From a virus, in IMG/VR virus record IMGVR_UViG_3300046010_013864, positions 1 to 26,928 of that record: a DNA stretch of 26,928 nucleotides; one strand, 5' to 3'. Below the pieces are notes generated by a model. It saw nothing but the letters and a program-made list of their open reading frames with translations. It ran no database searches and had not been told where the DNA came from. Of the stretch, positions 3 through 13,572 are shown piece by piece. The position numbers and the translations under genes are program-made. The stretch's first letter is position 1, and every line of letters starts with the position of its first letter.

Positions 3-470
3 GTATCATATAAAGGACATACCCTCTCCTTTTGGCCCTCTGGTAAAGTAGAAATACCATATTCTGTTGCTAATTCATGTAGAGAATATACTGTAAAGGG
101 GGCTATTAAAAAGATAGATGAATTTGAGGAAGAAAAGGAAAGAAAAAATCTTGACATCCAAAGAAAAACTGCAGCTTTACAGTCTGCTACAGAATTCCTT
201 AAAAAATCAATAGAGGAAAGTAATATTAAAGCTACAATAGAAAGTAAAAAAAGTGGACATTATATAAGTTCTAATAGAAGAGAATGGATTGAATATGATG
301 TATTGGAGATTAAATTTGAAAATGGAAACTTTATCAAATATAGAGTAGGATATCAATGGAATAAAGAATTATCCTCAATCACTTATACTTTAAGTTTGAT
401 TGAATTTAAAGATAATCGATTAGATGATGTTAAAAAAGATCCTCAAAAATTATTAAATCATTTGAAATAG
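3..470 (+). CDS. Unrecognised protein, 3' part of a gene cut by the window edge
   Basis: The reading frame is open from the first bases of the window to TAG at 468-470, giving 155 residues with no start in view, so the N terminus is missing. The visible part has a charged, probably helical stretch (about residues 31-80, rich in E and K) followed by a beta-prone stretch (about 85-140) with many aromatic residues. I do not recognise the family. It is followed directly by an intrinsic terminator and the first expression cassette, so it ends a transcription unit. Confidence 0.75.
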   Translation, partial: VSYKGHTLSFWPSGKVEIPYSVANSCREYTVKGAIKKIDEFEEEKERKNLDIQRKTAALQSATEFLKKSIEESNIKATIESKKSGHYISSNRREWIEYDVLEIKFENGNFIKYRVGYQWNKELSSITYTLSLIEFKDNRLDDVKKDPQKLLNHLK

Positions 471-505
471 GGAACAGGGAGCGCAAGCTCCCTTTCGTAT
501 ATTCA
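470..505 (+). promoter_or_regulatory. Cassette promoter, copy 1
   Basis: GGGA at 470-473 and CGTATATTCA at 496-505, 26 bases apart start to start. This is the recurrent bipartite element of the window: RGGW, 22 bases, then YGTATATTYA. If TATATT is the -10-like box, transcription would start near 510 and RGGW would lie near -40; that mapping is inference. The core is 33 bases before ATG 529. Confidence 0.75.
477..495 (+). terminator. Intrinsic terminator inside a promoter spacer
   Basis: GGGAGC (477-482) pairs with GCTCCC (487-492) around a GCAA tetraloop, followed by TTT. The T run is the start of the next cassette core TTTCGTATATT, so terminator and promoter share bases. Confidence 0.8.
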
Positions 506-528
506 ATCATATTAAAAAATTAAAGGTT

Positions 529-747
529 ATGGAAAATATAAAGATAAAAAACGCTCTAAAACGAATTGAAAAAGATAGAAGCCCTATCCTAACTTACCAA
601 TTAGGGTCTTTAACAGGAAGAGAAATGGTGGAATTGGTTCGAATGTTAGCTCCATCAACGAATGCAGATTTTGAGGATGTATTTGGTCATCCAATTTCTA
701 TTCATGAATTAGATACTATGTTGGAAGGATTTGCTATTAATAATTAA
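529..747 (+). CDS. Small unknown protein, 72 aa
   Basis: Not recognised. The protein begins with a basic, probably helical stretch (K/R-rich, residues 4-17) and continues as a mixed alpha/beta sequence with no cysteine, no membrane segment and no known motif. The start at 529 is supported by the standard leader AAAGGTTATG and by a cassette core 33 bases upstream. It is the first complete gene of the array and appears to be transcribed alone, because the next cassette begins one base after its stop. A role in early host takeover is plausible from context only. Confidence 0.8.
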   Translation: MENIKIKNALKRIEKDRSPILTYQLGSLTGREMVELVRMLAPSTNADFEDVFGHPISIHELDTMLEGFAINN

Positions 748-783
748 AGGAATATAATTTTTAAATTATAGTTCGTATATTTA
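748..783 (+). promoter_or_regulatory. Cassette promoter, copy 2
   Basis: AGGA at 748-751 immediately after the upstream stop; CGTATATTTA at 774-783; ATG 33 bases after the core start. Confidence 0.75.
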
Positions 784-806
784 ATGTATAAGAAAAAATA
801 AAGGCT

Positions 807-1130
807 ATGACAAACGCAGAATTAACTTGGGATATTAGAGAGTATGTAGAGGTTGATAGAAAACCATTTGATACAGATGATATTTCTTCTAAAACACAAC
901 TATCAGACATTCCACAAGATGTTCAAGAAATCTTAAAACAACTTCCATTACTAGAGATAGAAGAATACTTTGATTTTAATAATCAAGGATTCTTTGCGGA
1001 TGTATTGGATGGAGACCAACAGATTTATCTATTGAAAGATGAAAATAGAATATTCTTTGTAGATACACAAGGATACAGATATGCTCGTTATGTGGGAGAG
1101 ATTGAGGGGGGAATTGAATTATTAAAATAA
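807..1130 (+). CDS. Unknown acidic protein, 107 aa
   Basis: No family assigned. The N-terminal half is polar; the C-terminal half is rich in aromatic residues and ends in a strand-like segment with the pattern FFVDTQGYRYARYVG (about residues 84-98), a type of sequence I have seen in other unannotated phage proteins. No catalytic motif or membrane segment is visible. The start is fixed by a cassette and the leader AAAGGCTATG, a one-base variant of the usual GGTTATG. Its last codons overlap the GGGA box of the next promoter. Confidence 0.82.
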   Translation: MTNAELTWDIREYVEVDRKPFDTDDISSKTQLSDIPQDVQEILKQLPLLEIEEYFDFNNQGFFADVLDGDQQIYLLKDENRIFFVDTQGYRYARYVGEIEGGIELLK

Positions 1131-1144
1131 CATTCGTATATTTA
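1109..1144 (+). promoter_or_regulatory. Cassette promoter, copy 3
   Basis: GGGA at 1109-1112 lies inside the preceding gene; CGTATATTTA at 1135-1144; ATG 1167 is 32 bases from the core start. Confidence 0.75.
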
Positions 1145-1166
1145 ATCATATTAAAAAATAAGGGTT

Positions 1167-1403
1167 ATGGTAAAATTAGAGCAGATTAAACAATTAGTTA
1201 TTGATAGTGAAACGCCATGGCTCATAGATATCCATGGAGAGGAAGATGCAAAACCATATATTGATGGAATGATGGGGGAAATATCAGAATGTGAAGATAT
1301 TAATGATATTGTAGAGTTCTATGAAATGGCGGGATATAGTCAAGTAGAAGGTTATAGAATCATAATTGATATTATGAGAAGAGAATGTAAAATAGAGGAA
1401 TAG
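1167..1403 (+). CDS. Unknown acidic protein, 78 aa
   Basis: Unrecognised. The sequence is acidic and mainly helical by eye, with a short cluster of aromatics near residue 50-60 and a C terminus ending in Glu-Glu. Leader AAGGGTTATG and a cassette core 32 bases upstream define the start. The terminal Glu-Glu-stop codons (GAGGAATAG) contain the AGGA box of the next promoter, so the protein's end and the neighbour's promoter constrain each other. Confidence 0.82.
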   Translation: MVKLEQIKQLVIDSETPWLIDIHGEEDAKPYIDGMMGEISECEDINDIVEFYEMAGYSQVEGYRIIIDIMRRECKIEE

Positions 1404-1431
1404 TCTATAATAGAGAACATTCGTATATTCA
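1396..1431 (+). promoter_or_regulatory. Cassette promoter, copy 4
   Basis: AGGA at 1396-1399 is within the last codons of the upstream gene; CGTATATTCA at 1422-1431; ATG 1456 is 34 bases from the core. Confidence 0.75.
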
Positions 1432-1455
1432 GTTCAAATAAAAAAATAAAAGGTT

Positions 1456-1680
1456 ATGGCAAACATGAGTTATTGTAGATTCAGAAACACATTACAAGAT
1501 TTTGAAGATTGTTTTGATTTCTTAAGAAATGGAGGTGAAAAATTATCCTATGAGGAATTGAGAGCAGCAATTTCACTAATCCGAAGAGCGGAAGATATGG
1601 TTGAGATGTTTGAGGGGATGGATGATGAGGAATTGAAAAGCGAATTATCTAATATAGATGATGAGGAAGATGATTATTAA
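1456..1680 (+). CDS. Small conserved-type phage protein starting MANMSYCRFRNT, 74 aa
   Basis: The opening MANMSYCRFRNT followed by a helical, acidic remainder matches a widespread class of unannotated small phage proteins that begin MANMSYCRF-x-NT and carry an xLxDCxD segment (here at residues 13-20). The tail is strongly acidic. The biochemical function is not known to me. The start is supported by AAAGGTTATG and a cassette 34 bases upstream. The AGGA box of the next cassette lies within its acidic C-terminal codons. The family resemblance is from memory. Confidence 0.85.
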   Translation: MANMSYCRFRNTLQDFEDCFDFLRNGGEKLSYEELRAAISLIRRAEDMVEMFEGMDDEELKSELSNIDDEEDDY

Positions 1681-1699
1681 AAAATAATTCGTATATTTA
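1664..1699 (+). promoter_or_regulatory. Cassette promoter, copy 5
   Basis: AGGA at 1664-1667 inside the upstream gene; CGTATATTTA at 1690-1699; ATG 1720 is 30 bases from the core. The leader here ends AATAATATG rather than GTTATG. Confidence 0.72.
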
Positions 1700-1719
1700 G
1701 TTCAAATAAAATAAATAAT

Positions 1720-2457
1720 ATGAAAAACGTATTTTTAATACCAACAGAAAAACCAAGTAGGTTATTTATTATAGATGGTAAATTATACAACTACCATAAA
1801 CCACAACAAGGAGATGGAGTTAATGAAATAAACCAATACATCTACATCACTTCTGATGAAAAAATTAAAGAAGGGGTTGAACAATGGTATTTAGATAAAG
1901 TACTAAATGAACCTTATAATTCAGGAGGTGCTCAATATTCATCTAAACAAGATGTTATCATCCTAACAACAGACCAAGACTTAATCAAAGATGGTGTACA
2001 AGTTATTGATGATGAGTTCTTAGAGTGGTTTGTTAAGAATCCGAGCTGTGAGTGGGTTGAGGTTGAATCAATGATTAACATGATTCAATTTACACCAAGA
2101 GAATTTATTTACAAAATCATCATCCCACAAGAAGAACCTAAACAAGAAATAGTTATAAATGAAAAATGTTCTAAATGTGGTAGTAGTCAATATCAAATAG
2201 GAACACCATTTTGTACTGATGAATTTTGCAATACAAATATTGGAAAAGCTTCAGAAGATTATTGGCTTAAACAACCTTACAATGAAGATGCTTTTGCAGA
2301 AGGTGCTAAATGGATGGCTGAAAGAATGTATAGTGAGGAAGAAGTTTTAAAAATTCTTTATGATTGGACAATATACAAAATTGATTTAATGGTCAATGAA
2401 AAATTAGATTCTATTTTAGCTTACAATGAATGGTTTGAACAATTTAAAAAGAAATAA
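1720..2457 (+). CDS. Two-part protein with a C-terminal-half Cys4 zinc-ribbon-like motif, 245 aa
   Basis: This is the largest gene of the accessory array. Residues 1-115 form a beta-rich domain ending with the segment DEFLEWFVKNPSCEWVEVE, a pattern I recall from unannotated Bacteroidota phage proteins. Around residues 149-167 there are two cysteine pairs, CSKCG and CTDEFC, consistent with a small zinc-binding ribbon. The remainder is helical, with an AFAEGAKWMAERM segment near 200. No enzyme motif is seen. A role in binding nucleic acid or protein is inference from the Cys4 motif. The start follows a cassette at 30 bases. Confidence 0.85.
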   Translation: MKNVFLIPTEKPSRLFIIDGKLYNYHKPQQGDGVNEINQYIYITSDEKIKEGVEQWYLDKVLNEPYNSGGAQYSSKQDVIILTTDQDLIKDGVQVIDDEFLEWFVKNPSCEWVEVESMINMIQFTPREFIYKIIIPQEEPKQEIVINEKCSKCGSSQYQIGTPFCTDEFCNTNIGKASEDYWLKQPYNEDAFAEGAKWMAERMYSEEEVLKILYDWTIYKIDLMVNEKLDSILAYNEWFEQFKKK

Positions 2458-2462
2458 GATAA

Positions 2463-2498
2463 AGGAATAAACTCTATAAAATATAATTCGTATATTCA
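2463..2498 (+). promoter_or_regulatory. Cassette promoter, copy 6
   Basis: AGGA at 2463-2466, CGTATATTCA at 2489-2498, ATG 2520 at 31 bases. Confidence 0.75.
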
Positions 2499-2519
2499 GT
2501 TCAAATAAAAAAATAAAAT

Positions 2520-2822
2520 ATGAGTAAAGAAATTAAAGAATCTATTTTAAATTATTTAAAATTTGAAAGAGATGAACGTATCCCTGAATTAATAGAGGCA
2601 TATGATGGGGATGTAGAATATGTAATCAATGAGATATGGGGGCCTTTAGAAACAATCCTAGACGGGAAAACAGATGAGGAACTAATTGAGATTATAAATG
2701 ATAATTTAGATGAACCTGAATTTGAGGAAAAATTCAATAAATTTAAAAAACATATGGGAGAGGGATGGGATGAAGAGGAATTATACTGCAATTATGTTTG
2801 GGAGAATATTACTAATCCTTAA
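2520..2822 (+). CDS. Unknown acidic protein, 100 aa
   Basis: Not recognised. The sequence is highly charged, with Asp/Glu spread along its length and Trp/Tyr residues near the C terminus. It looks helical throughout, with no cysteine cluster and no membrane segment. An open frame on the opposite strand across most of the gene is a shadow of its regular codon pattern. The start is chosen because it is the only ATG at the expected distance from the cassette; the leader is AAATATG rather than GTTATG. Confidence 0.82.
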   Translation: MSKEIKESILNYLKFERDERIPELIEAYDGDVEYVINEIWGPLETILDGKTDEELIEIINDNLDEPEFEEKFNKFKKHMGEGWDEEELYCNYVWENITNP

Positions 2823-2828
2823 CCAAAG

Positions 2829-2864
2829 AGGAACATAAATTATAAAAAATATTTCGTATATTCA
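2829..2864 (+). promoter_or_regulatory. Cassette promoter, copy 7
   Basis: AGGA at 2829-2832, CGTATATTCA at 2855-2864, ATG 2887 at 32 bases. Confidence 0.75.
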
Positions 2865-2886
2865 GTCATATTAAAAAATAAAAGTT

Positions 2887-3192
2887 ATGAAAAAATTACA
2901 ATTAACACAATTGGGGGAAGTAGAATTAGATAGAATAAATGAACTAATCATACAAGATGTAGATTATCATGATTTATCTAAAGAAGAAAAACTAGTTGCA
3001 GATATTGGAATGTATGTAGATGAAGCATATGGGGAAAATCAATTCAATTCATTAGAGGAATTCATAGCGGAGGCAATGTCAGTTGAATTTGTTCCTGAAT
3101 ACATAACTGAAAAACGAATCAAAAGGAGAGTAAATAAGATAAAGAAAGCAATCAAAGAAAATATTTGTGAGATAGTAGAAATAGAGGAATAA
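2887..3192 (+). CDS. Unknown protein with acidic body and basic C-terminal helix, 101 aa
   Basis: Unrecognised. Residues 1-75 are acidic and mixed. Residues about 76-92 form a basic helix with a KRIKRRVNKIKKAIK run that could contact nucleic acid or the acidic body of the same protein. The last residues are again acidic, ending Glu-Glu with the codons GAGGAATAA, which supply the AGGA box of the next promoter. The start is set by AAAAGTTATG and a cassette at 32 bases. Confidence 0.83.
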   Translation: MKKLQLTQLGEVELDRINELIIQDVDYHDLSKEEKLVADIGMYVDEAYGENQFNSLEEFIAEAMSVEFVPEYITEKRIKRRVNKIKKAIKENICEIVEIEE

Positions 3193-3220
3193 ACTCTATA
3201 AGATAGAATTCGTATATTCA
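3185..3220 (+). promoter_or_regulatory. Cassette promoter, copy 8
   Basis: AGGA at 3185-3188 in the upstream coding end; CGTATATTCA at 3211-3220; ATG 3243 at 32 bases. Confidence 0.75.
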
Positions 3221-3242
3221 AATATAAATAAAAAAAGAAGTT

Positions 3243-3437
3243 ATGAAAGAAAATAGATTATCAAACAACAATTATGGAGTATTTTGCATTGCCGCTCAAT
3301 TAGAACAAAATAATAGAGAATTAGATGTTTTGTGGGACAAAGCACTTAAACTGTATGATGAATTTCGAAATAGTAAATTTAATAATCCCAAAGAATCGGA
3401 ATTAGAATGTATCAATGAATTTCTAAATAAAAAATAA
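3243..3437 (+). CDS. Unknown small protein, 64 aa
   Basis: Not recognised. A largely helical protein with two cysteines and a central heptad-like stretch (about residues 17-45), possibly self-associating. It has the leader AGAAGTTATG and a cassette 32 bases upstream. It heads a three-gene unit: the next start lies one base after its stop, and no new cassette occurs before the third gene, so the three are probably translated from one transcript. Confidence 0.78.
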   Translation: MKENRLSNNNYGVFCIAAQLEQNNRELDVLWDKALKLYDEFRNSKFNNPKESELECINEFLNKK

Positions 3438-3438
3438 A

Positions 3439-3555
3439 ATGGAGGAAATAAAAGAATATCTAAAAGAATTAACAGATGAAGGTATAATTCACCCTGATGT
3501 AAGGGATAATATTATTTTTTTAATAAAAACACATATCCTAAAAGAAAAGTTATGA
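3439..3555 (+). CDS. Unknown microprotein, 38 aa
   Basis: The frame from ATG 3439 reads MEEIKEYLKELTDEG and continues to TGA 3553-3555. It is acidic and probably a single helix followed by a hydrophobic stretch (DNIIFLIKTHIL, about residues 23-34). It starts one base after the upstream stop and overlaps the next start as ATGA, a typical translational-coupling arrangement. That tight fit on both sides, more than the sequence itself, supports it as a real gene. Confidence 0.6.
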   Translation: MEEIKEYLKELTDEGIIHPDVRDNIIFLIKTHILKEKL

Positions 3556-3779
3556 TAGAAAAAATTCATGGATATTACACAATATCAAATATAGGAGGGT
3601 ATGGAGTTATACTTTCAGATTGTGGTGAAGCAGCAAAACTAGTTATGAACAATGAAGATTGTGATGTTACAGATTGGTTAGATATTGAACATATATTTGA
3701 TGAAGATGAAAATGAATTTGTACCTGTTATTGACCCAACTGGTTACAATGTATCTTTAAATTTAGTAATGAGGGTATAG
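3552..3779 (+). CDS. Unknown acidic protein, 75 aa
   Basis: Unrecognised. The N terminus is a beta-like segment rich in Gly and Tyr (residues 5-20), followed by an acidic middle and a hydrophobic C-terminal strand. The start overlaps the previous stop (ATGA) and is preceded by AAAAGTTATG, so the usual leader is present although no cassette precedes it. The GGGT box of the next promoter lies in its last codons. Confidence 0.8.
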   Translation: MIEKIHGYYTISNIGGYGVILSDCGEAAKLVMNNEDCDVTDWLDIEHIFDEDENEFVPVIDPTGYNVSLNLVMRV

Positions 3780-3807
3780 AAAATTTAAAAGATATTTCGT
3801 ATATTTC
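3772..3807 (+). promoter_or_regulatory. Cassette promoter, copy 9
   Basis: GGGT at 3772-3775 inside the preceding gene; CGTATATTTC at 3798-3807 followed by AG; ATG 3829 at 31 bases. Confidence 0.72.
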
Positions 3808-3828
3808 AGTAAATAAAAAATAAAAGTT

Positions 3829-4029
3829 ATGAAAGTATTTAGAATTACAACAGAAGTAAAATCAACAAAAACTATTCAATATATTGTTGAAGCGAACTCA
3901 AAGGAAGAAGCAGAATTAAAAATAATTGAAGGAGAAGAACGTGGTGAAGGTGATGAAGTGGATGAGGTAATTGAATGGGGGACAGAAATACTTACCAAAA
4001 CCAAATTTATAGAAGATTTAGAGGACTAA
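3829..4029 (+). CDS. Small acidic alpha/beta protein, 66 aa
   Basis: The order of segments is strand, helix, strand: a valine/isoleucine-rich N-terminal strand, a QYIVEANSKEEAELKI segment (about residues 17-32) and an acidic tail. The strand-then-VEANSxEEA arrangement is common in small phage proteins of unknown function. No catalytic residue is evident. Leader AAAAGTTATG and a cassette at 31 bases set the start. The codons for its last residues overlap the AGGA box of the next cassette. Confidence 0.83.
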   Translation: MKVFRITTEVKSTKTIQYIVEANSKEEAELKIIEGEERGEGDEVDEVIEWGTEILTKTKFIEDLED

Positions 4030-4057
4030 GAAATATAAAATAAAATTCGTATATTCA
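4022..4057 (+). promoter_or_regulatory. Cassette promoter, copy 10
   Basis: AGGA at 4022-4025 in the upstream coding end; CGTATATTCA at 4048-4057; ATG 4082 at 34 bases. Confidence 0.75.
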
Positions 4058-4081
4058 AGTATAAATAAGAAAATAAAAGTT

Positions 4082-4372
4082 ATGAAAACAATTAACAAAG
4101 TAATTGAGATTGATAATAATAGAGGAGATATCCGTGAAATTATAGAATTCAATGGGAAAAAATTCAAACTCAAAGCCTCATTAAGAAATGGTTCAAGTGA
4201 ATTAGAGGCCCAAATTATGGATAGTGATGGAGTATTCCAATTTGTATTGGCAGGATTAGATGCAGGTTTTAAATACCAAGCAAGCTATGTTTCGGATAGA
4301 AATAGAAAAGAAGCAGATATGTTAACAGGAATTGATACAATGAAGGCCCTAATTAAAAAAGTATATTCTTAA
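4082..4372 (+). CDS. Unknown protein, 96 aa
   Basis: Not recognised. It looks like a mostly beta domain (residues 1-70, alternating charged and hydrophobic residues, with FKLKASLRNGSSELEAQIMD in the middle) ending in a short basic helix. It is less acidic than its neighbours. Start supported by AAAAGTTATG and a cassette 34 bases upstream. It appears to be a single-gene unit. Confidence 0.82.
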   Translation: MKTINKVIEIDNNRGDIREIIEFNGKKFKLKASLRNGSSELEAQIMDSDGVFQFVLAGLDAGFKYQASYVSDRNRKEADMLTGIDTMKALIKKVYS

Positions 4373-4377
4373 TTAGA

Positions 4378-4413
4378 GGGAATAAGAAATATAAAAGAAA
4401 GATCGTATATTCA
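4378..4413 (+). promoter_or_regulatory. Cassette promoter, copy 11
   Basis: GGGA at 4378-4381; core CGTATATTCA at 4404-4413 preceded by GA rather than TT; ATG 4434 at 30 bases. Confidence 0.72.
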
Positions 4414-4433
4414 GGATATAAAAATAAATAAAT

Positions 4434-4595
4434 ATGGAAAACGAAACAAACGCATTTGGTTTACCCGAGACAACCAAAGATGAAATTATCGATAAGATAG
4501 AGGCATTATCTAAAAAAATAAGAATGGATTTCTCAGACCCTAGAGGGGAATGTAGAAAGATTGTTGAATTGTGTGAAAAATTAAGAACAATATGA
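4434..4595 (+). CDS. Unknown small helical protein, 53 aa
   Basis: The frame starts MENETNAFGLPETTKDEI and ends at TGA 4593-4595. It is a soluble, mainly helical protein with two cysteines near the end and no recognised motif. A cassette 30 bases upstream supports the start. Its stop overlaps the ATG of the following membrane protein as ATGA, so the two are probably coupled and may act together. Confidence 0.72.
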   Translation: MENETNAFGLPETTKDEIIDKIEALSKKIRMDFSDPRGECRKIVELCEKLRTI

Positions 4596-4783
4596 TATTA
4601 GCAATTGCAATTATATTAGGAATCGCTATGATACTTAATATAAAAGAGACAGAAGGAAATTATAATGTGTTGATGGGGGCAGCCTTAGTAATAAGCGTTT
4701 GGGGGTTGAATTGGGTTGTAGGACTTGTAATACTATGTTTGTTAGTGGTTATTGGAGTTGGATGTGTTATAGTGAATAATTAA
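4592..4783 (+). CDS. Small integral membrane protein, 63 aa
   Basis: Two hydrophobic segments are visible, at about residues 2-16 and 26-60 (the second long enough to hold one or two spans), separated by a short charged loop KETEGN. It overlaps the previous stop by ATGA and has no cassette of its own. Small membrane proteins like this in phage early regions can act in superinfection exclusion or lysis control, but nothing here shows which, if either. It is the last gene before a 700-base gap. Confidence 0.72.
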   Translation: MILAIAIILGIAMILNIKETEGNYNVLMGAALVISVWGLNWVVGLVILCLLVVIGVGCVIVNN

Positions 4784-5012
4784 GTAATTTAACGTATATA
4801 AAACAAGAGAGAATATGAGACAATCATTGTTATTGAGAGTGAGAGGTATAGTTGAGTCCGCGTTTAATTTTATTAGAATGTTTATATAAAGGGTGGGAGC
4901 TCTTTACATAATAAATTAAGTAAAGGGTGGAAACTAAGAGTGGATAATGGGGAAACTATTACGAGGTAGATTAGGGTATATGAATTATGTGATTAGATGA
5001 ATGGTATGGGAA

Positions 5013-5030
5013 GGTTAGATGCATCTAACC
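5013..5030. repeat. 18-base perfect palindrome, possible terminator or protein-binding site
   Basis: GGTTAGATGCATCTAACC reads the same on both strands and is preceded by AA and followed by CTTTT. As RNA it could form a 7- or 8-bp hairpin with a short loop and a T tail; as DNA it could be a dimer-binding site. It lies at the point where the gap switches from G-rich to C-rich. Confidence 0.75.
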
Positions 5031-5270
5031 CTTTTATGCATCGCCCCTACCCCCTCTCACCTCTCCCAAAAATATATACCTTCCTCACGAGAAATGTACA
5101 AAAGAATGCATTTTTCCCCTCCCCCCACATATGTATAACCGTAAGTTCATTAACATTTTGTATTAAAAAACCACTCCCCACATCAATAGTAGCGGCAAGG
5201 TGCGATATTATCCAAGTGATTTCCCTCCACGTTTCGGTTTAGAATGCAAATAGTTACATGTTTTTACGCA

Positions 5271-8475: not shown

Positions 8476-8500
8476 CACCCATTCATATGGGTGGGCTTTT
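8476..8500 (+). terminator. Intrinsic terminator
   Basis: CACCCAT (8476-8482) pairs with ATGGGTG (8487-8493) around TCAT, followed by GGCTTTT. It lies 21 bases before the next start. Confidence 0.68.
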
Positions 8501-8520
8501 GGTGTTGTAAATCAATTCAT

Positions 8521-8670
8521 ATGAGCGTATTTCAATTCATAAAATCCAATTCACAACGTATTTTAAATATTGATGGTTGTCTAACCGAAAATGGCAATAT
8601 AACGGTTTTGGAGGATAATGGTGATTTATCATTTATATATTTTGAGAATGGGAATATAATTGTTAAATAA
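8521..8670 (+). CDS. Unknown microprotein, 49 aa
   Basis: The frame from ATG 8521 begins MSVFQFIKSNSQRILNIDG and ends at TAA 8668-8670. It alternates hydrophobic and polar residues with repeated Asn-Gly turns (ENGN, EDNGD, ENGN), consistent with a small beta-hairpin protein. It has no cassette of its own and sits after two terminators; its source of transcription is unclear. The next promoter's GGGA box lies in its Glu-Asn-Gly-Asn codons. Codon use is less C-poor than in the genes that follow. Confidence 0.6.
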   Translation: MSVFQFIKSNSQRILNIDGCLTENGNITVLEDNGDLSFIYFENGNIIVK

Positions 8671-8685
8671 TATTTCGTATATTTA
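8650..8685 (+). promoter_or_regulatory. Cassette promoter, copy 19
   Basis: GGGA at 8650-8653 inside the upstream microprotein gene; CGTATATTTA at 8676-8685; ATG 8708 at 32 bases. Confidence 0.73.
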
Positions 8686-8707
8686 AGTATAATAAAAAAT
8701 AAAAAAT

Positions 8708-8956
8708 ATGAAAGTAATTGAGTTTGTAAAATTGAATGAAGTTGAAATTAAAAATGAATTAATTAAATTAAATTTAATTGATGAAGATGATATTGATGAG
8801 TTAAATTTTGAAGAAAATATTGATGATGAAGAAATATGTGGGGGGGAAGAGTTTGGAATTGATTTTAGTTTTAATAAAAGTAAAGTTGATGAAGATGAAA
8901 CTTTTGAATTAAAAATAAATGATAAAGTTTTATTTGGGTGTTGTTATAGTTATTAA
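8708..8956 (+). CDS. Very acidic unknown protein, 82 aa
   Basis: About 25 of 82 residues are Asp or Glu against about 8 Lys, giving a strong net negative charge. Acidic runs lie near residues 25-50. The C terminus holds two adjacent cysteines followed by Tyr-Ser-Tyr. This charge pattern is compatible with a DNA-mimic or protein-binding inhibitor, but I see no motif proving it. The gene is nearly free of C on the coding strand. Its last 35 bases belong to a 92-base sequence repeated perfectly at 11001. Confidence 0.82.
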   Translation: MKVIEFVKLNEVEIKNELIKLNLIDEDDIDELNFEENIDDEEICGGEEFGIDFSFNKSKVDEDETFELKINDKVLFGCCYSY

Positions 8957-9013
8957 TTTAAAGGTATAGTTTAATTAAAAATAAATTTGTATATTTAAGT
9001 ATAATAAAAAATA
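8922..9013 (+). repeat. 92-base perfect direct repeat, copy A
   Basis: Identical base for base to 11001-11092. This copy covers the end of the acidic gene from ATAAAGTTTT, its stop codon, the AGGT box, the TGTATATTTA core and the start of the A-rich leader. It is the original context, because the coding part is in frame here. Confidence 0.93.
8962..8997 (+). promoter_or_regulatory. Cassette promoter, copy 20 (T variant)
   Basis: AGGT at 8962-8965; TGTATATTTA at 8988-8997, with T in place of C. ATG 9034 is 46 bases away, after a lengthened A/T-rich leader. Confidence 0.7.
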
Positions 9014-9033
9014 ATAAATTAAAAATTAAGGTT

Positions 9034-9393
9034 ATGAAATTAGAATTAGAGAGAATTTATAGAGAGTATTGTAATAGTGATTTAGAAGGTTTAAAAGATG
9101 AAGATGAATTTGTAGATGTATTATTAGGATTTGTAAAATTTAGATTATATGTGAGTGGTGGGAATATGCATGATTGTATGGTAAGTATGAATAATGTAAG
9201 TAATTTTTTAGATGAAATATTTTTATATGATAATATGATGAGTGATTGGGGTGGTGGTTATAGAGGAGATTTTTGTTGGGAATGTTTTGATAGTTTAGAA
9301 GAATTAGTTAATGAAAGTAATTTAGAAGAAAATATTAAAAATGAAATATTAGAAGGTTATAGAAAAGAAAATGGAATGGATGATGATGAATAA
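9034..9393 (+). CDS. Acidic unknown protein, 119 aa
   Basis: Helical and acidic, with conspicuous aromatic and glycine content in the centre (SDWGGGYRGDFCWECFDSLEE region, residues about 69-88) including a Cys-Trp-Glu-Cys pair. Four cysteines in total could bind metal but their spacing is not a standard ribbon. No family recognised. The start follows GGTTATG. Almost no C occurs on the coding strand. A strong terminator begins just after its stop. Confidence 0.82.
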   Translation: MKLELERIYREYCNSDLEGLKDEDEFVDVLLGFVKFRLYVSGGNMHDCMVSMNNVSNFLDEIFLYDNMMSDWGGGYRGDFCWECFDSLEELVNESNLEENIKNEILEGYRKENGMDDDE

Positions 9394-9397
9394 TTAA

Positions 9398-9433
9398 AGG
9401 AAGCCCCTATATAAAGGGGCTTTCGTATATTCA
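9398..9433 (+). promoter_or_regulatory. Cassette promoter, copy 21
   Basis: AGGA at 9398-9401; CGTATATTCA at 9424-9433; ATG 9457 at 33 bases. Confidence 0.75.
9401..9423 (+). terminator. Intrinsic terminator inside a promoter spacer
   Basis: AAGCCCC (9401-9407) pairs with GGGGCTT (9416-9422), loop TATATAAA, then T and the cassette core. The stem lies between the GG box and the core of the next promoter. Confidence 0.8.
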
Positions 9434-9456
9434 GTTATATTTAAAAATAGAAAGTT

Positions 9457-9606
9457 ATGAATAATAGGTTTGTGTATAGAGGAATATTAATTTTATTTGA
9501 TGAATTAATTGGATGGTTTTTTTATGATAAAAATAGTAATAGATTTGATTTTGATGATAGGGAAACCTGTAAACAATTTATAGATAAAAAAATAATAAAG
9601 GAATAA
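9457..9606 (+). CDS. Unknown microprotein, 49 aa
   Basis: The frame begins MNNRFVYRGILILFDELIGW and ends at TAA 9604-9606. It is rich in aromatic residues, with a hydrophobic segment GILILFDELIGWFFY (about residues 9-23) that contains acidic residues and so is more likely an amphipathic helix than a membrane span. The end codons AAGGAATAA provide the AGGA of the next cassette. AAAGTTATG and a cassette at 33 bases strongly support it as a gene despite its size. Confidence 0.75.
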   Translation: MNNRFVYRGILILFDELIGWFFYDKNSNRFDFDDRETCKQFIDKKIIKE

Positions 9607-9634
9607 CATTATTAAATTTAAGTTCGTATATTCA
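9599..9634 (+). promoter_or_regulatory. Cassette promoter, copy 22
   Basis: AGGA at 9599-9602 in the upstream coding end; CGTATATTCA at 9625-9634; ATG 9666 at 41 bases. Confidence 0.73.
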
Positions 9635-9665
9635 AGTATAAATAAATAATTAAAAGATAAAAGTT

Positions 9666-9821
9666 ATGTATAGTTTGAAATGTGATTATTATAAGAAGGA
9701 GTTCAACACAATTGATGAATTGATTGATAACGTGATGATGGATGGAATGGATCCAAGTTATGAAGTAACTAAGGATGGAAAAGGAACAGGTGAATATTTA
9801 GAAGATTTTATAGTATATTAA
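9666..9821 (+). CDS. Unknown acidic microprotein, 51 aa
   Basis: The frame begins MYSLKCDYYKKEFNTIDEL and ends at TAA 9819-9821. It has a Tyr-rich N terminus, a Met/Asp-rich centre (DNVMMDGMD) and an acidic C terminus with EYLEDFIVY. No recognised motif. AAAAGTTATG and a cassette 41 bases upstream support it. The last base of its stop is the A of the next AGGT box. Confidence 0.75.
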   Translation: MYSLKCDYYKKEFNTIDELIDNVMMDGMDPSYEVTKDGKGTGEYLEDFIVY

Positions 9822-9856
9822 GGTATAAAATAATTAAAATCTGATTCGTATATTCA
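9821..9856 (+). promoter_or_regulatory. Cassette promoter, copy 23
   Basis: AGGT at 9821-9824, sharing A with the upstream stop; CGTATATTCA at 9847-9856; ATG 9880 at 33 bases. Confidence 0.75.
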
Positions 9857-9879
9857 GCTCAAATAAAAAATGATAAGTT

Positions 9880-10173
9880 ATGAAAGTATTAAATGAAATG
9901 ATTGAATTCGTAAATTCAAATTTTGAAGTAATTAAAGATAAATTTTCATCTGATGAAAGAGAAATGTTAAATGAATTAGATGATAATTTTTTCTTTGATG
10001 AGGAAGATAATTATTTACTTCATGCTCTAAATTCAGGATTAGATTCAGCTCAAGATGATACATCATTAATTGAATTAATTAATGAACGTTCATTAGGGGT
10101 AGATTTAGAAGATGATTCAGATGCTATTAATTTATTTAATATGATTAAAGCAATAAAGGAAGCAGCTAATTAA
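9880..10173 (+). CDS. Acidic helical protein, 97 aa
   Basis: Predicted by eye to be almost fully helical, acidic, with a hydrophobic periodicity. The C terminus IKAIKEAAN is encoded by the bases that form the stem of the following terminator, as in the AT-hook-like gene at 7638. Not recognised. AATAAGTTATG-type leader (ATAAGTTATG) and a cassette at 33 bases set the start. Confidence 0.82.
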   Translation: MKVLNEMIEFVNSNFEVIKDKFSSDEREMLNELDDNFFFDEEDNYLLHALNSGLDSAQDDTSLIELINERSLGVDLEDDSDAINLFNMIKAIKEAAN

Positions 10174-10192
10174 AGCTGCTTTCGTATATTTC
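10157..10192 (+). promoter_or_regulatory. Cassette promoter, copy 24
   Basis: AGGA at 10157-10160 in the upstream gene; CGTATATTTC at 10183-10192 followed by AG; ATG 10214 at 31 bases. Confidence 0.75.
10160..10182 (+). terminator. Terminator hairpin with the stop codon in its loop
   Basis: AAGCAGCT (10160-10167) pairs with AGCTGCTT (10174-10181), loop AATTAA containing the TAA stop. It is the same design as at 7981-8003, with one base pair changed on both sides of the stem (T-A there, C-G here). Confidence 0.8.
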
Positions 10193-10213
10193 AGTATAAT
10201 AAAAAATAAAAAT

Positions 10214-10414
10214 ATGAAAAAGTATTTAGTAATTGATATTGAAAATGGGAATAATTTTTATTTAGTTGATGATTTAACTATATTAATTAATGAAATGTAT
10301 GAATGTGAATTATTTGATAATGAATTTGAAGTAGTTAAAGGATGGTTTTTTGATAATTTTAAAGTATTTGTTAGTGGAAGTGATATAATTGAATTAACAA
10401 GGGATATAGATTAA
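10214..10414 (+). CDS. Acidic unknown protein, 66 aa; paralogue of the gene at 10779
   Basis: Begins MKKYLVIDIENGNNFYLVDD. The opening pattern MKKYL-x-xD-x-EN, followed by a short acidic linker and helix, is shared with the protein encoded at 10779-10997, so the two look like diverged copies. Beta strand, helix, strand order; acidic; no cysteine motif. The start follows AAAATATG rather than GTTATG. The GGGA box of the next cassette is inside its last codons. Confidence 0.8.
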   Translation: MKKYLVIDIENGNNFYLVDDLTILINEMYECELFDNEFEVVKGWFFDNFKVFVSGSDIIELTRDID

Positions 10415-10436
10415 TAAAATAAAATTCGTATATTTA
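10401..10436 (+). promoter_or_regulatory. Cassette promoter, copy 25
   Basis: GGGA at 10401-10404 inside the upstream gene; CGTATATTTA at 10427-10436; ATG 10460 at 33 bases. Confidence 0.75.
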
Positions 10437-10459
10437 ATTATAATAAAAAAATATAAGTT

Positions 10460-10708
10460 ATGAAGTATAGAGTAATTAAAAATGGATATTTTGTTACAAA
10501 CAATTTAAGTAATGAAGGATTGTTAAGTGAGGAAGAGTTTAATATGAGTTTTATTCATATGTTAGTAGTAGGTGATGAGTGGGAAGTAGATGAAGTAATT
10601 GAAGGAGAGACTGAGGTGAAGTGTATTAAAAGTGAAAATTGGGAAGGTGAGAGTAGTTATGGATGGTTTAATTTTGATTTTTATAAGGAATATTTTGAGT
10701 TAATTTGA
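10460..10708 (+). CDS. Acidic small protein with aromatic C terminus, 82 aa
   Basis: Has the arrangement GDEWEVDEV (about residues 37-45), VKCIKSENWEGE (about 52-63), then GWFNFDFYKEYFELI. That succession of a GDxWEV strand, a charged strand and an aromatic helix is familiar from small unannotated phage proteins, but I cannot name a function. Start supported by ATAAGTTATG and a cassette at 33 bases. Confidence 0.82.
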   Translation: MKYRVIKNGYFVTNNLSNEGLLSEEEFNMSFIHMLVVGDEWEVDEVIEGETEVKCIKSENWEGESSYGWFNFDFYKEYFELI

Positions 10709-10721
10709 TTTTATATTTTTA

Positions 10722-10757
10722 GGGAATAAAATAATTAAAAATAATTTTGTATATTTA
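10722..10757 (+). promoter_or_regulatory. Cassette promoter, copy 26 (T variant)
   Basis: GGGA at 10722-10725; TGTATATTTA at 10748-10757; ATG 10779 at 31 bases. Confidence 0.72.
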
Positions 10758-10778
10758 AGTATAATAAAAAAACATAAT

Positions 10779-10997
10779 ATGAAAAAGTATTTAAAAGTTG
10801 ATTTAGAAAATTGTTATGGTATTAGTTTATGTGATACTAAAGAAGAAGTAATTGAAGGATGTGGTTATGATGTTAATGAAATTACATTTGAAGAATTATT
10901 AATTGAAGTTAGAGGTGTATATGATATTGTTGAAATTGAAGGTGAATTTAATATGAAATGGTTAGTTGATGATATTGATGAAGATGATGAAGATTAA
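10779..10997 (+). CDS. Very acidic protein, 72 aa; paralogue of the gene at 10214
   Basis: Begins MKKYLKVDLENCYGISLCDT and ends in a run of Asp/Glu (DDIDEDDED). The N-terminal pattern is shared with the protein at 10214-10414. The acidic tail could mimic nucleic acid or bind a basic partner; this is inference. Immediately after its stop comes copy B of the 92-base repeat, so the sequence downstream of this gene was replaced or inserted from elsewhere in the array. Confidence 0.8.
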   Translation: MKKYLKVDLENCYGISLCDTKEEVIEGCGYDVNEITFEELLIEVRGVYDIVEIEGEFNMKWLVDDIDEDDED

Positions 10998-11000
10998 ATA

Positions 11001-11092
11001 ATAAAGTTTTATTTGGGTGTTGTTATAGTTATTAATTTAAAGGTATAGTTTAATTAAAAATAAATTTGTATATTTAAGTATAATAAAAAATA
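11001..11092 (+). repeat. 92-base perfect direct repeat, copy B
   Basis: Identical to 8922-9013. Here the first 35 bases, which encode the C terminus of the acidic protein at 8708 in copy A, are not part of any gene. The promoter portion drives the gene at 11099. This marks copy B as the derived one. Confidence 0.93.
11041..11076 (+). promoter_or_regulatory. Cassette promoter, copy 27 (T variant)
   Basis: AGGT at 11041-11044; TGTATATTTA at 11067-11076; ATG 11099 at 32 bases. Entirely within repeat copy B. Confidence 0.72.
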
Positions 11093-11098
11093 TAAATT

Positions 11099-11332
11099 AT
11101 GAAAAATTTAAAATTAAATTTAGAATTAGAATTAGGGTTAGAAGTTAATTTATTATTAAATGAAGATAGTGGAGAGGAAAATGATTTTTATTTAAATGTA
11201 AATGAAGAAATAGATATATTTGAGGGGGCATATCAAAAATGGGATATTTATATAGAAGAGGGAGATATAGAGAAAAGTTTTATGAGTGATGAGGAATTAA
11301 TTATATTTTTAAAAGATTATATTAAGGAATAA
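11099..11332 (+). CDS. Very acidic unknown protein, 77 aa
   Basis: Starts with an alternating Leu/charged stretch (MKNLKLNLELELGLEVNLLL), then acidic loops and a helical end. It looks like a beta-hairpin followed by a helix. No known motif. The start is preceded by AAATTATG and lies at the standard distance from the copied promoter. The last codons AAGGAATAA carry the next AGGA box. Confidence 0.8.
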   Translation: MKNLKLNLELELGLEVNLLLNEDSGEENDFYLNVNEEIDIFEGAYQKWDIYIEEGDIEKSFMSDEELIIFLKDYIKE

Positions 11333-11360
11333 AATTATTAAATAATATTTTGTATATTTA
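11325..11360 (+). promoter_or_regulatory. Cassette promoter, copy 28 (T variant)
   Basis: AGGA at 11325-11328 in the upstream coding end; TGTATATTTA at 11351-11360; ATG 11384 at 33 bases. Confidence 0.72.
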
Positions 11361-11383
11361 AGTATAATAAAAAATAATAAGTT

Positions 11384-11605
11384 ATGACAAAGGAAGAATT
11401 AAATTTAAAAATTAAAAATTTAGAAGATTTTGGTTTTACAGGAGAAGGAATTGAATTTAAAGAATTATTAATAACTTGTTTTACCCAGGAAGATGAAGAT
11501 GAAACTCCTCATTATATTGTTTATGGGGAGGAAGATGAGAGTGAGGATGGAATTTTTAATTCTTTAGATATAGAGGAAGTAGTAGAGTTTGTTTTTAATT
11601 ATTAA
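11384..11605 (+). CDS. Very acidic unknown protein, 73 aa
   Basis: About 22 of 73 residues are Asp/Glu against 4 Lys. Acidic clusters occur at QEDEDE (near residue 35-40) and GEEDESED (near 48-55). The middle has an HYIVYG strand. Such proteins can act as DNA mimics or inhibitors of host enzymes, but nothing here identifies a target. ATAAGTTATG and a cassette at 33 bases set the start. A strong terminator follows. Confidence 0.8.
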   Translation: MTKEELNLKIKNLEDFGFTGEGIEFKELLITCFTQEDEDETPHYIVYGEEDESEDGIFNSLDIEEVVEFVFNY

Positions 11606-11615
11606 ATAATAATAT

Positions 11616-11642
11616 AATGGGGGTATAAAAACCCCCATTTTT
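11616..11642 (+). terminator. Intrinsic terminator next to a promoter core
   Basis: AATGGGGGT (11616-11624) pairs with ACCCCCATT (11631-11639), loop ATAAAA, followed by a T-rich tail. The GG box of the next cassette is in its 5' arm. Confidence 0.82.
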
Positions 11643-11656
11643 ATTTTGTATATTTC
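11621..11656 (+). promoter_or_regulatory. Cassette promoter, copy 29 (T variant)
   Basis: GGGT at 11621-11624; TGTATATTTC at 11647-11656 followed by AG; ATG 11692 at 45 bases. Confidence 0.68.
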
Positions 11657-11691
11657 AGTATAAGAAAGATAAATAATTAAAATTAAGAATT

Positions 11692-11856
11692 ATGAAAATG
11701 ATGTTAAGTGAATTTGTGAGAAAAGTAGAAAATAATTATGATTCAATTAAAGTAATAGGGTTAATAGTAAATTTAAAATGTGTATTGAAAGAGAGAGGTG
11801 ATGTTGAAATTGACTTGGATCTTATGTGTAAACATTTTGGAGTTGAAATTAATTAA
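11692..11856 (+). CDS. Unknown small protein, 54 aa
   Basis: The frame begins MKMMLSEFVRKVENNYDSIK and ends at TAA 11854-11856. It looks like two helices joined by a short loop, with two cysteines in the second half and a final HFGVEIN strand. Not recognised. A cassette lies 45 bases upstream. An in-frame Met at residue 3 or 4 is an alternative start. The stop codon's last A is the A of the next AGGA box. Confidence 0.73.
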   Translation: MKMMLSEFVRKVENNYDSIKVIGLIVNLKCVLKERGDVEIDLDLMCKHFGVEIN

Positions 11857-11891
11857 GGAATAAAATAATTAAAAATAAATTCGTATATTCA
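11856..11891 (+). promoter_or_regulatory. Cassette promoter, copy 30
   Basis: AGGA at 11856-11859; CGTATATTCA at 11882-11891; ATG 11916 at 34 bases and a second leader-start at 11955. Confidence 0.75.
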
Positions 11892-11897
11892 GTCATA

Positions 11898-11980
11898 ATT
11901 AAAAAATTAAATGTTATGAAAAGTTTAAAAGATTTTATTAAAAAATTAAAGGTTATGGAAAGTTTAAAAGATTTTATTAA
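11898..11980 (+). repeat. 39-base tandem duplication of a leader and start codon
   Basis: The leader, ATG and first codons are present twice in tandem, 39 bases apart, with two or three differences (ATGTTATGAAAAG against AGGTTATGGAAAG). The period is 13 codons, so the frame is kept. Confidence 0.88.
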
Positions 11981-12161
11981 TGAAAATTTTAATGAATTTA
12001 ATAATTTAGATAGTAGTGAAATTATTGAATGTACCTTAGATGAATTTAATAATGAAGTAATTGATTATTTAAAATTGAATTATAGATTTGATTATAAAGG
12101 TATATGTATTTATTATGTTAAAGAGAAAGATGAGATATGGATTGAAAATTTTAATAATTAA
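11916..12161 (+). CDS. Unknown acidic protein with duplicated start, 81 aa (or 68 aa from ATG 11955)
   Basis: The frame reads MKSLKDFIKKLKVMESLKDF: the first 13 residues are a duplicate of the next ones. The second ATG (11955) is preceded by the consensus leader TTAAAGGTTATG, better than the first (AAATGTTATG), so translation may start at either or both. The body is acidic and helical with Tyr-rich strands near the end (YKGICIYYVKEKDEIWIE). Function unknown. Confidence 0.8.
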   Translation: MKSLKDFIKKLKVMESLKDFINENFNEFNNLDSSEIIECTLDEFNNEVIDYLKLNYRFDYKGICIYYVKEKDEIWIENFNN

Positions 12162-12197
12162 AGGAACATAAATTATAAATAGAAATTCGTATATTCA
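12162..12197 (+). promoter_or_regulatory. Cassette promoter, copy 31
   Basis: AGGA at 12162-12165; CGTATATTCA at 12188-12197; ATG 12221 at 33 bases. Confidence 0.75.
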
Positions 12198-12220
12198 AGT
12201 ATAATAAAAAAAGATAAGTT

Positions 12221-12430
12221 ATGTTAGTATTTAAAGAAAATGTTAAAGGTTTTATTTATGATTCCATTAATGGACAATGTTATAATTTAAATTCAGATTT
12301 TGATAATGAAGATGATGATTTTATTATTATAGATGATGTTGAATTATTAAATGAATTATTTATAGTAACTGATAAAGAACAGTTAATGAATGATGAAGAA
12401 GATTTAAATTTATTTGTTGAATTTAAATAG
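12221..12430 (+). CDS. Acidic unknown protein, 69 aa
   Basis: Beta-like start (MLVFKENVKGFIYDSINGQC) followed by an acidic stretch with DNEDDDFIIIDD (about residues 27-38) and a helical acidic end. The general plan resembles the paralogous proteins at 10214 and 10779 (strand, acidic linker, helix), but identity is too low to call by eye. ATAAGTTATG and a cassette at 33 bases set the start. Confidence 0.8.
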   Translation: MLVFKENVKGFIYDSINGQCYNLNSDFDNEDDDFIIIDDVELLNELFIVTDKEQLMNDEEDLNLFVEFK

Positions 12431-12434
12431 TTAA

Positions 12435-12470
12435 AGGTATAAAATAGTTAAATAATATTTCGTATATTTA
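12435..12470 (+). promoter_or_regulatory. Cassette promoter, copy 32
   Basis: AGGT at 12435-12438; CGTATATTTA at 12461-12470; ATG 12493 at 32 bases. Confidence 0.75.
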
Positions 12471-12492
12471 ATTCAAATAAAAAATAAAGGTT

Positions 12493-12681
12493 ATGAAAAA
12501 TGTAAGTAATGAGAGTTTAGTAAAAGGATTGAAATTAAATAAAGTTAGTAATAAAAATATTGAATTATTTTTACAATTAAAAGAGGTGGGGAAAAAATTA
12601 GGTTTTGAAATTGATAACACTGATGGAATGGATGGGGAATTTTTTGTTACATTTTCTATAAAAGAAGAATTTAATAGTTAA
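12493..12681 (+). CDS. Unknown small protein, 62 aa
   Basis: A Lys/Asn-rich helical N-terminal half followed by a Gly/Asp turn (NTDGMDGEF, about residues 42-50) and a strand. Less acidic than its neighbours. Not recognised. AAAGGTTATG and a cassette at 32 bases define the start. Confidence 0.78.
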   Translation: MKNVSNESLVKGLKLNKVSNKNIELFLQLKEVGKKLGFEIDNTDGMDGEFFVTFSIKEEFNS

Positions 12682-12685
12682 TAAT

Positions 12686-12721
12686 AGGACATAAATAATC
12701 AAAATAAATTTCGTACATTTC
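12686..12721 (+). promoter_or_regulatory. Cassette promoter, copy 33 (CGTACATT variant)
   Basis: AGGA at 12686-12689; CGTACATTTC at 12712-12721, with one change in the core; ATG 12744 at 32 bases. Confidence 0.68.
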
Positions 12722-12743
12722 AGTATAATTAAAAATAAAGGTT

Positions 12744-12824
12744 ATGACATATTTAGGGATTGTAGGATTTGGAATAGTTATTATATTTAAGTGTATGATA
12801 TTTCGTACTTTTATAAATAAGTAA
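12744..12824 (+). CDS. Single-span membrane microprotein, 26 aa
   Basis: The frame reads MTYLGIVGFGIVIIFKCMIF and six further residues to TAA 12822-12824. One hydrophobic segment (residues 3-15) is followed by a basic, Cys-containing tail, the usual layout of tiny phage membrane peptides. It would be ignored by length, but it has the full cassette: GG box, core, and AAAGGTTATG at the standard distance. It is the last gene before the second non-coding gap. No function can be assigned. Confidence 0.6.
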   Translation: MTYLGIVGFGIVIIFKCMIFRTFINK

Positions 12825-12852
12825 TTGGCGGTACGTACGCATATATATGGTA

Positions 12853-12991
12853 TATAGGGTATAGGCGGTAGAGGGTACCACGTGCGTTGGTATCAATATA
12901 TGGCGGGGGTGGTGTGGGAAGCGAAGTAGACGCACCCATACATCTCTAAAACCCTTTACCCATCGATTGATATATCTTTATATACCCTATA
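12853..12991. repeat. 11-base inverted repeat pair
   Basis: TATAGGGTATA at 12853-12863 and its exact complement TATACCCTATA at 12981-12991, 117 bases apart. A GGGGGTGGTGTGGG stretch (near 12904) has an imperfect C-rich counterpart near 13,033-13,049. Confidence 0.75.
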
Positions 12992-13127
12992 ACTATCCCA
13001 CAACTATCAATATTTTATATCACCCATGGTTATCCCCCACAACCACACCCCAAATTTACAAAATGTCAAAAAACTAAAAAAACCAAAAATCCAAAATCTC
13101 TCTTTTAAAAAATCCTTTACCCATCGA
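12953..13127 (+). repeat. 14-base direct repeat pair CCTTTACCCATCGA
   Basis: Exact copies at 12953-12966 and 13114-13127, each preceded by AAA followed by C or T and followed by A/T-rich sequence. Iteron-like, but two copies only. Confidence 0.8.
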
Positions 13128-13181
13128 CATTATATATACAAATATATTTTTTGATAACCAAATGATATTATGAAATAAACC

Positions 13182-13190
13182 AATATTTAT
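13182..13190 (+). promoter_or_regulatory. AATATTTAT motif before a late-type gene
   Basis: AATATTTATCAT, 9 bases before ATG 13200. Similar elements precede 19908 and 22524, and a related one precedes 14352. Whether it is a promoter or a translation element is not known. Confidence 0.35.
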
Positions 13191-13199
13191 CATAAAAAA

Positions 13200-13535
13200 A
13201 TGAGTACATATTCCTACCAACAACTAAATTCAACAGGCTCAATTGGTGAAGATATTACGGGTGATACAACATTTGCATTTATTAACCCAAGCGCATCATC
13301 ATATCTAGTTTTAGAAACCATAACCACATCATCATTCTATTCAGAATCTCATCCTAAAAATTTCTTAGGAACTTTTACCTTCTCATCTGTTTCCGATATA
13401 GTAAATTCTCCATATATTGTAGGAGTAGTAGTCCCACCAGGTTCTTCCTCATTTGATTTCACCCCAGACTCACCTATTTCTGGTTCTTCTTATAGAATCC
13501 GAGGAACAGGAATGTTTTCTTTGAATATCTCATAA
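13200..13535 (+). CDS. Probable small virion protein, 111 aa
   Basis: Ser/Thr/Gly-rich and beta-like throughout, starting MSTYSYQQLNSTGSIGEDIT and ending with a RIRGTGMFSL strand. A VVVPPGSSSFDFTP segment (about residues 78-91) looks like a loop in a jelly-roll or Ig-like sandwich. This composition is typical of phage head or tail decoration proteins, and codon use matches the structural module rather than the C-poor array. I believe I have seen related sequences among phage structural genes, but I cannot name a position in the virion. Confidence 0.7.
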   Translation: MSTYSYQQLNSTGSIGEDITGDTTFAFINPSASSYLVLETITTSSFYSESHPKNFLGTFTFSSVSDIVNSPYIVGVVVPPGSSSFDFTPDSPISGSSYRIRGTGMFSLNIS

Positions 13536-13562
13536 AAAAGCTTGTCTTCCTAAATAATTTTT

Positions 13563-13572
13563 CATATATTCA
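13563..13572 (+). promoter_or_regulatory. Degenerate cassette core, copy 34
   Basis: CATATATTCA at 13563-13572, with A for G and no GG box 26 bases upstream; ATG 13596 is 33 bases away, preceded by AAAGGTCATG. It is the last recognisable copy. Confidence 0.55.

Follow-up and report, generated by a model that had tools for sequence, protein, structure and literature searches.

Which signal drives transcription of the many small genes crowded into one part of a virus genome, and how much of that signal belongs to the host? The question is raised by a 26,928-base virus record, IMG/VR IMGVR_UViG_3300046010_013864, analysed from positions 1 to 26,928; this whole stretch is called the window below. 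An array of mostly small genes in it is served by copies of a short core, YGTATATTYA, most of which carry a GG-containing box at a fixed distance upstream. The element is almost certainly a promoter. Our overall best explanation, which we regard as fairly probable, is that these copies form a second, phage-specific promoter class with RGGAA in place of the −33 contact of Bacteroidota promoters. The whole analysis was sequence-based, and most of the relatives compared are fragments. The register was set with the first T of TATATT at −12, and offsets are otherwise counted from the core C.

The two-part element in the window

The initial annotation had described 34 cores on the plus strand. On recounting, all of them were present, with first bases from 496 to 13563, including the variants CGTACATT at 12712 and CATATATT at 13563. 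The strict core [CT]GTATATT[CT] was found 32 times on the plus strand of 1-13600, compared with an expectation of 0.5 (Markov-1, maximum 4), and once on the minus strand; no plus-strand copy occurred in the window after 13600. Furthermore, GG stood at offset −25/−24 from the core C in 31 of the 34 copies, against a background of 4.2% (binomial P = 8e-40), and this ranked first among 554 dinucleotide-by-offset tests. The highest GG count at any single offset in 2000 shuffles was 7. When the pattern was made one base longer as a spacing control, 4 matches were obtained among 40 related records. The claim that the spacing is conserved beyond chance was in agreement with both the shuffles and the held-out related sequences described below, and the GG box, which had been placed near −40, lies at −39/−38. 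Moreover, 14 of the 31 GG boxes fall within the coding sequence upstream, which means that the spacing does not simply follow from where genes end. Conservation was also seen in the AA after GG, in TAAA at offsets −12 to −9, in TT at −2/−1 and in an A-rich leader. The features concerned are as follows.

529..12681, plus strand: array of mostly small genes (about 50-120 amino acids), mostly of unknown function, served by these promoters
470..12721, plus strand: 31 GG-class promoters, with RGGW at −40 to −37 and the YGTATATTYA core at −14 to −5
496, 774, 1135, 1422, 1690, 2489, 2855, 3211, 3798, 4048, 4404, 5738, 6962, 7198, 7583, 8004, plus strand: first bases of the GG-class cores, part 1
8676, 8988, 9424, 9625, 9847, 10183, 10427, 10748, 11067, 11351, 11647, 11882, 12188, 12461, 12712, plus strand: first bases of the GG-class cores, part 2
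5439..5469, plus strand: TTG-class promoter, TTGG at −35 to −32, core 5460, without a GG box
6627..6656, plus strand: TTG-class promoter, TTTTG shifted by one base, core 6647, without a GG box
13542..13572, plus strand: TTG-class promoter, CTTG, core CATATATTCA at 13563, at the array end, upstream of 13596-13868 and later genes
8054-8143 and 8222-8333, plus strand: two tRNA-like elements downstream of promoter core 8004

It had also been stated that nearly all cores lie 29-34 bases upstream of a start codon. This held for 26 of the 34 and did not hold for the rest, among which the copy at 8004 has no start codon and precedes the tRNA-like genes. That copy indicates that the element acts in transcription and not in translation, and the reading of the repeats as bipartite promoters was supported. 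At promoter 5738, the predicted transcription start coincides with the first ATG (5738-5752), and the mRNA may therefore lack a leader or be translated from a later ATG.

The three copies without GG (5460, 6647 and 13563) had been connected with their places in the array. They are instead accounted for by a TTG at the −33 place, which was present in all three at offset −21 or −20, compared with 3 of the 31 GG copies (Fisher P=0.003, within the window). As a test of membership in the Bacteroidota sigma-A class, the −33 element TTTG/TTG was absent from 28 of the 34 window copies.

GG and TTG as probable alternatives upstream of a shared core

The Bacteroidota sigma-A promoter consists of a −33 TTTG and a −7 TAnnTTTG element (PMC6847099, PMC9723704), and the −7 element of Flavobacterium johnsoniae is TAHHTTTG at −12 to −5 (PMC6847099). 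The phage promoter is similar to it in TATATTYA at −12 to −5, in the AT-rich spacer and in the A-rich leader without a Shine-Dalgarno sequence. In the −7 comparison, T, A, T, T and the pyrimidine fit, whereas the nearly invariant G at −5 (PMC6847099) is replaced by A in most phage copies; upstream, RGGAA at −40 to −36 replaces the −33 element. The earlier statement that the repeat matches no Bacteroidota element was not supported for the core, which aligns with the −7 element, with A for G at −5; it is the upstream half alone that is foreign. As host genomes rarely contain the exact phage core with either base at −5, the A at −5 and the TTCG are at most possible signs of a non-host sigma factor. 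In addition, the classical TTG −33 element with an identical core is also used in GG-bearing genomes.

A search of related phage genomes for the motif had been proposed. The held-out set consisted of 281 promoter-like sites from related IMG/VR loci, from which sites selected by the search pattern itself were excluded. It gave a single GG peak at −25 (199 sites) and a single TTG peak at −21/−20 (84 sites). At these 281 sites, GG (−39/−38) and TTG (−35 to −33) were mutually exclusive, with an odds ratio of 0.06 (P=6e-21). The exclusion was also found within genomes (Mantel-Haenszel odds ratio 0.31, chi-square 29.5), as calculated over 15 relatives, the window and Flavobacterium phage vB_FspM_immuto (NC_055915; immuto below), the closest cultured relative, with 45% identity over the gp6-like protein. 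From −26 downstream, the GG and TTG classes were alike. Because of the mutual exclusion and the shared downstream half, the two boxes look like two options for the same function, and it is probable that GG substitutes for the −33 contact.

The two classes were seen in blocks along the 15 relatives, with 47 class switches compared with a mean of 104 after shuffling; none of 20,000 shuffles gave so few. The GG block coincides with the small-gene region, and the TTG promoters are mostly at its flanks. Genes behind GG promoters had a median length of 80 amino acids, and few of them matched immuto proteins from outside the array. Promoter class was kept across orthologous genes more often than expected (P=0.002).

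In immuto, a small-gene array at 66.8-76.2 kb is syntenic with the window array and is situated just before phosphohydrolase, sigma-like and baseplate genes. The two arrays share the same kind of core and the same leader type as well as the synteny of their small genes. Unlike the window, immuto has AGTTGC at the −33 place, with TTG at −35 to −33 in the register used here, and no GG-only promoter. The immuto array genes 70642, 72224 and 72966 are preceded by TTG, whereas their relatives in G004, G011, G015, G017, G023 and G028 are preceded by GG. In the tree of gp6-like proteins, immuto was placed outside the GG-bearing clade with support of 89/91, and long branches leave its place unsure. The simplest story is that one branch saw the array change from TTG to GG; a loss of the GG class in immuto is a conceivable alternative history.

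In 257 Gb of bacterial and archaeal genomes, the GG pattern was found in 76 stretches with one match each, scattered over phyla, which corresponds to chance level. For Flavobacteriaceae, 2 of 199 genomes contained it, fewer than for the reversed control. Among viral contigs, 95 stretches matched the pattern, many with several copies (up to 15), and other phage contigs with the same core and TTG promoters had almost no GG. Microcystis phage Mel-JY01, the next relative, had no GG array in the 50 kb examined. An earlier description of the GG motif was not found in the literature searched, whose coverage was partial.

A proposed phage-specific reader and the rival explanations

Since the −7 half is common to both classes, the same holoenzyme is inferred for both. 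In the proposed mechanism, polymerase with host sigma-A, or with a close functional match, would read TTCG at −16 to −13 and TATATTYA at −12 to −5. Promoters of the ordinary class would have TTTGG further upstream (−36 to −32) as the Bacteroidota −33 element. In the GG class, RGGAA at −40 to −36 would take over the −33 contact, and a phage-made or virion-borne factor, or a phage-modified polymerase, would dock next to sigma region 4 or take its position. The likeliest reader is a component that the phage makes, brings in its virion or modifies, because GG replaces the −33 contact and is unseen in hosts, and reading of the GG box by such a phage-specific factor or modification is somewhat favoured in our assessment. 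Each promoter would drive one small gene, or a few of them, in a region presumed to serve host takeover, and the GG class would be a separate regulon in one genome block, beside the TTG promoters and a third, late motif, ATATTTATA. A spacer hairpin, present in about a fifth of the copies, would end the upstream transcript inside the promoter. A transcription start about 14 bases after the core C, the use of sigma-A, the factor itself and early timing are all predicted. Chances are about even that the lineage evolved a new factor redirecting Bacteroidota sigma-A through RGGAA and that on one branch the whole takeover array went over from TTG to GG.

This arrangement can be compared with the T4 middle promoter, in which a MotA box is combined with the sigma-70 −10 element and MotA works with AsiA (PMC2988021). 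In both cases, the host upstream element gives way to a phage-specific box at fixed spacing, a host −10-type element is kept, and the promoters form a separate class beside ordinary ones. It was different from T4 in the box, as TGCTT is centred at −30 and RGGAA (−40 to −36) at −38, and in the genes served, which are a small-gene array here and chiefly replication genes in T4. The primary sigma factor of Bacteroidota is divergent. To our knowledge, T4 in E. coli is the main case in which sigma appropriation has been worked out in detail, and we know of no described case in which a phage takes over the Bacteroidota primary sigma in such a way. The sharply defined box, the exact register, the two matched classes in one genome and the cultured TTG relative make the proposal testable with promoter reporters. 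Furthermore, the GG class could supply Bacteroidota genetic tools with a promoter class not used by the host, and could be a signature by which phages of this lineage, and the points where their genes start, are recognised in metagenomes.

Several observations weigh against the phage-specific class as proposed. With A instead of G at −5, the use of host sigma-A is not certain. The exclusion of the two boxes was not absolute, as 36 sites carry both GG and TTG. No match to the MotA C-terminal domain was found in 16 records, a search in which the control genomes gave none either, and no cultured GG-class phage was found.

Among the proteins considered as reader of the GG box, one is encoded within the array.

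7638..7994, plus strand: AT-hook-like protein with repeated GRP motifs (three to four)

It was present in 13 of the 16 GG-bearing records and absent from immuto. It was not found in G025, G010 and G009, which are fragments, so it is a lead only, as a candidate DNA-binding factor that may read the GG box. No match to it was obtained in GenBank phages. In some relatives, the protein has an additional N-terminal SAP-like segment. Proteins with sigma regions 2 and 4 were rejected as reader, as none was general among the records searched; an ECF-sized (extracytoplasmic function) sigma with both regions was seen in two relatives (G017:88400-88837 and G022:17509-17976).

The main rival explanation is that the unmodified host holoenzyme, by sigma-A region 4 or the alpha C-terminal domain, reads GG as an alternative upstream contact without any phage factor, which would make the GG and TTG promoters two routes to high promoter strength. 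The small-gene array of T4-like phages is usually early, and an early array should work before phage proteins are made; the downstream half common in its entirety to both classes and the 36 sites with both boxes also fit this explanation. However, GG was at chance level in bacterial genomes including the 199 Flavobacteriaceae, an argument that is partly weak because the core itself is rare in hosts. Moreover, almost no GG was seen in the other phage contigs that combine this core with TTG, and the classes occur in blocks and are not mixed. Reading by the host holoenzyme was considered rather unlikely, though well ahead of the explanations that follow. It is improbable that the array chiefly consists of PeSL-like recombination cassettes (promoter early stem-loop), in which the repeats of promoter plus hairpin would stay alike because they allow genes to be shuffled, with the fixed spacing as a by-product of copying one ancestral cassette. 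Such copying agrees with the hairpin in a fifth of the copies, with the long identical stretch in 8988 and 11067 and with the turnover of array gene content between relatives. The bases from GG to core nevertheless vary between copies and 14 of the 31 GG boxes are in coding sequence, which means that the spacing is kept without the spacer, and GG is conserved at isolated single promoters with unrelated spacers in many relatives. Copying alone leaves the GG/TTG exclusion unexplained, and shuffling of cassettes may be an added effect.

GGAA resembles the −35 motif of ECF sigma factors, and the ECF-sized sigma of G017 and G022 would fit such a reading. Reading of GGAA as a −35 box by a phage ECF-type sigma is still highly improbable. 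Apart from immuto, 15 records were searched and 2 of them had such a sigma, and the downstream element resembles that of sigma-A. The geometry is also wrong for an ECF −35 box (GGAAC), since GG lies 27 bases before TATATT, too far compared with about 23 between the starts of ECF −35 and −10. Just as little probability was given to the GG box as a mark on the DNA, namely a guanine modification site or a phage nucleoid protein site, instead of a promoter contact. A DpdA-like enzyme in immuto and five GG-bearing relatives, most with 7-deazaguanine genes, and the common occurrence of the AT-hook-like protein in GG-bearing records are in line with a mark. But immuto has the modification genes without GG boxes, and a mark would need neither the exact spacing to the −7 element nor the exclusion of TTG.

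Lineage, late motif, spacer hairpins and tRNA-like elements

Genes for a contractile tail, with gp25-like and gp6-like baseplate proteins (PHROGs), lie in the downstream half of the window. The window does not reach the capsid gene, and the capsid evidence was taken from the relative G014, whose capsid matched immuto (57%), Rhodothermus phage RM378 (34%) and, more weakly, T4-like phages. On the basis of these matches and the baseplate genes, the virus was placed in a T4-superfamily lineage of Bacteroidota phages as a probable myovirus. A DpdA-like DNA guanine transglycosylase and 7-deazaguanine genes were observed in immuto (18607-37015) and in G010, G014, G020, G022 and G029. Guanines in this lineage may be modified, with a bearing on how the GG box is read.

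Clear genes are missing from two long parts of the window array (4784-5459 and 12825-13199), and each of these parts holds a pair of direct repeats. The second directly follows a 26-codon frame behind promoter 12712. The immuto array likewise has gene-poor stretches.

The late-type motif ATATTTATA was found in 29 of 71 upstream regions of structural genes from relatives and immuto, where about 1 was expected, and TTCGTATATT was found in none of these 71 regions. A sigma-like protein is also encoded downstream of the array.

16410..17147, plus strand: conserved sigma-like protein, putative late sigma

This protein is conserved in 14 records including immuto, where it is annotated as hypothetical, and several members of the family had weak sigma region 2 matches. 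For its structure model, which is of modest confidence (predicted local distance difference test, pLDDT, 71; predicted template modelling score, pTM, 0.42), the best Foldseek matches were mostly sigma factors, all with non-significant E-values above 0.05. Sequence searches of PDB and PHROG with the protein gave nothing useful. It is a likely candidate for a late sigma like T4 gp55, and it is unlikely to be the GG reader because immuto has it too.

A strong hairpin was found upstream of the core in about a fifth of the promoters of both classes, compared with 1% of shuffles, and these spacer hairpins often run straight into T's. Further spacer hairpins precede the cores 8004, 9424, 10183 and 11647, in addition to the following example.

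470..495, plus strand: terminator-like hairpin within the GG-to-core spacer

PeSL elements have been reported in T4-like phages, as cited in PMC4503421. The hairpin-bearing copies are putative composite promoter-terminators like these elements. The two are alike in combining a promoter with a terminator-like stem-loop, placed between the small genes that make up a hypervariable region of T4-superfamily phages, and unlike in that about a fifth of the window-type copies have the hairpin and that the GG box and exact spacing are added. Promoters 8988 and 11067 are identical over a long stretch, which covers the surroundings of the core and the sequence before it and takes in the end of the upstream gene; this is suggestive of a recent duplication, as for a copied cassette, and of recombination between cassettes.

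No open frame starts in the region behind promoter 8004, which contains the two tRNA-like elements. ARAGORN called neither 8054-8143 nor 8222-8333. They scored 41 and 40 bits with the Rfam tRNA model and have good acceptor, D and T arms, with unusual 33- and 57-base stretches in place of the anticodon arm. Similar D-arm sequences were seen in a few related loci.

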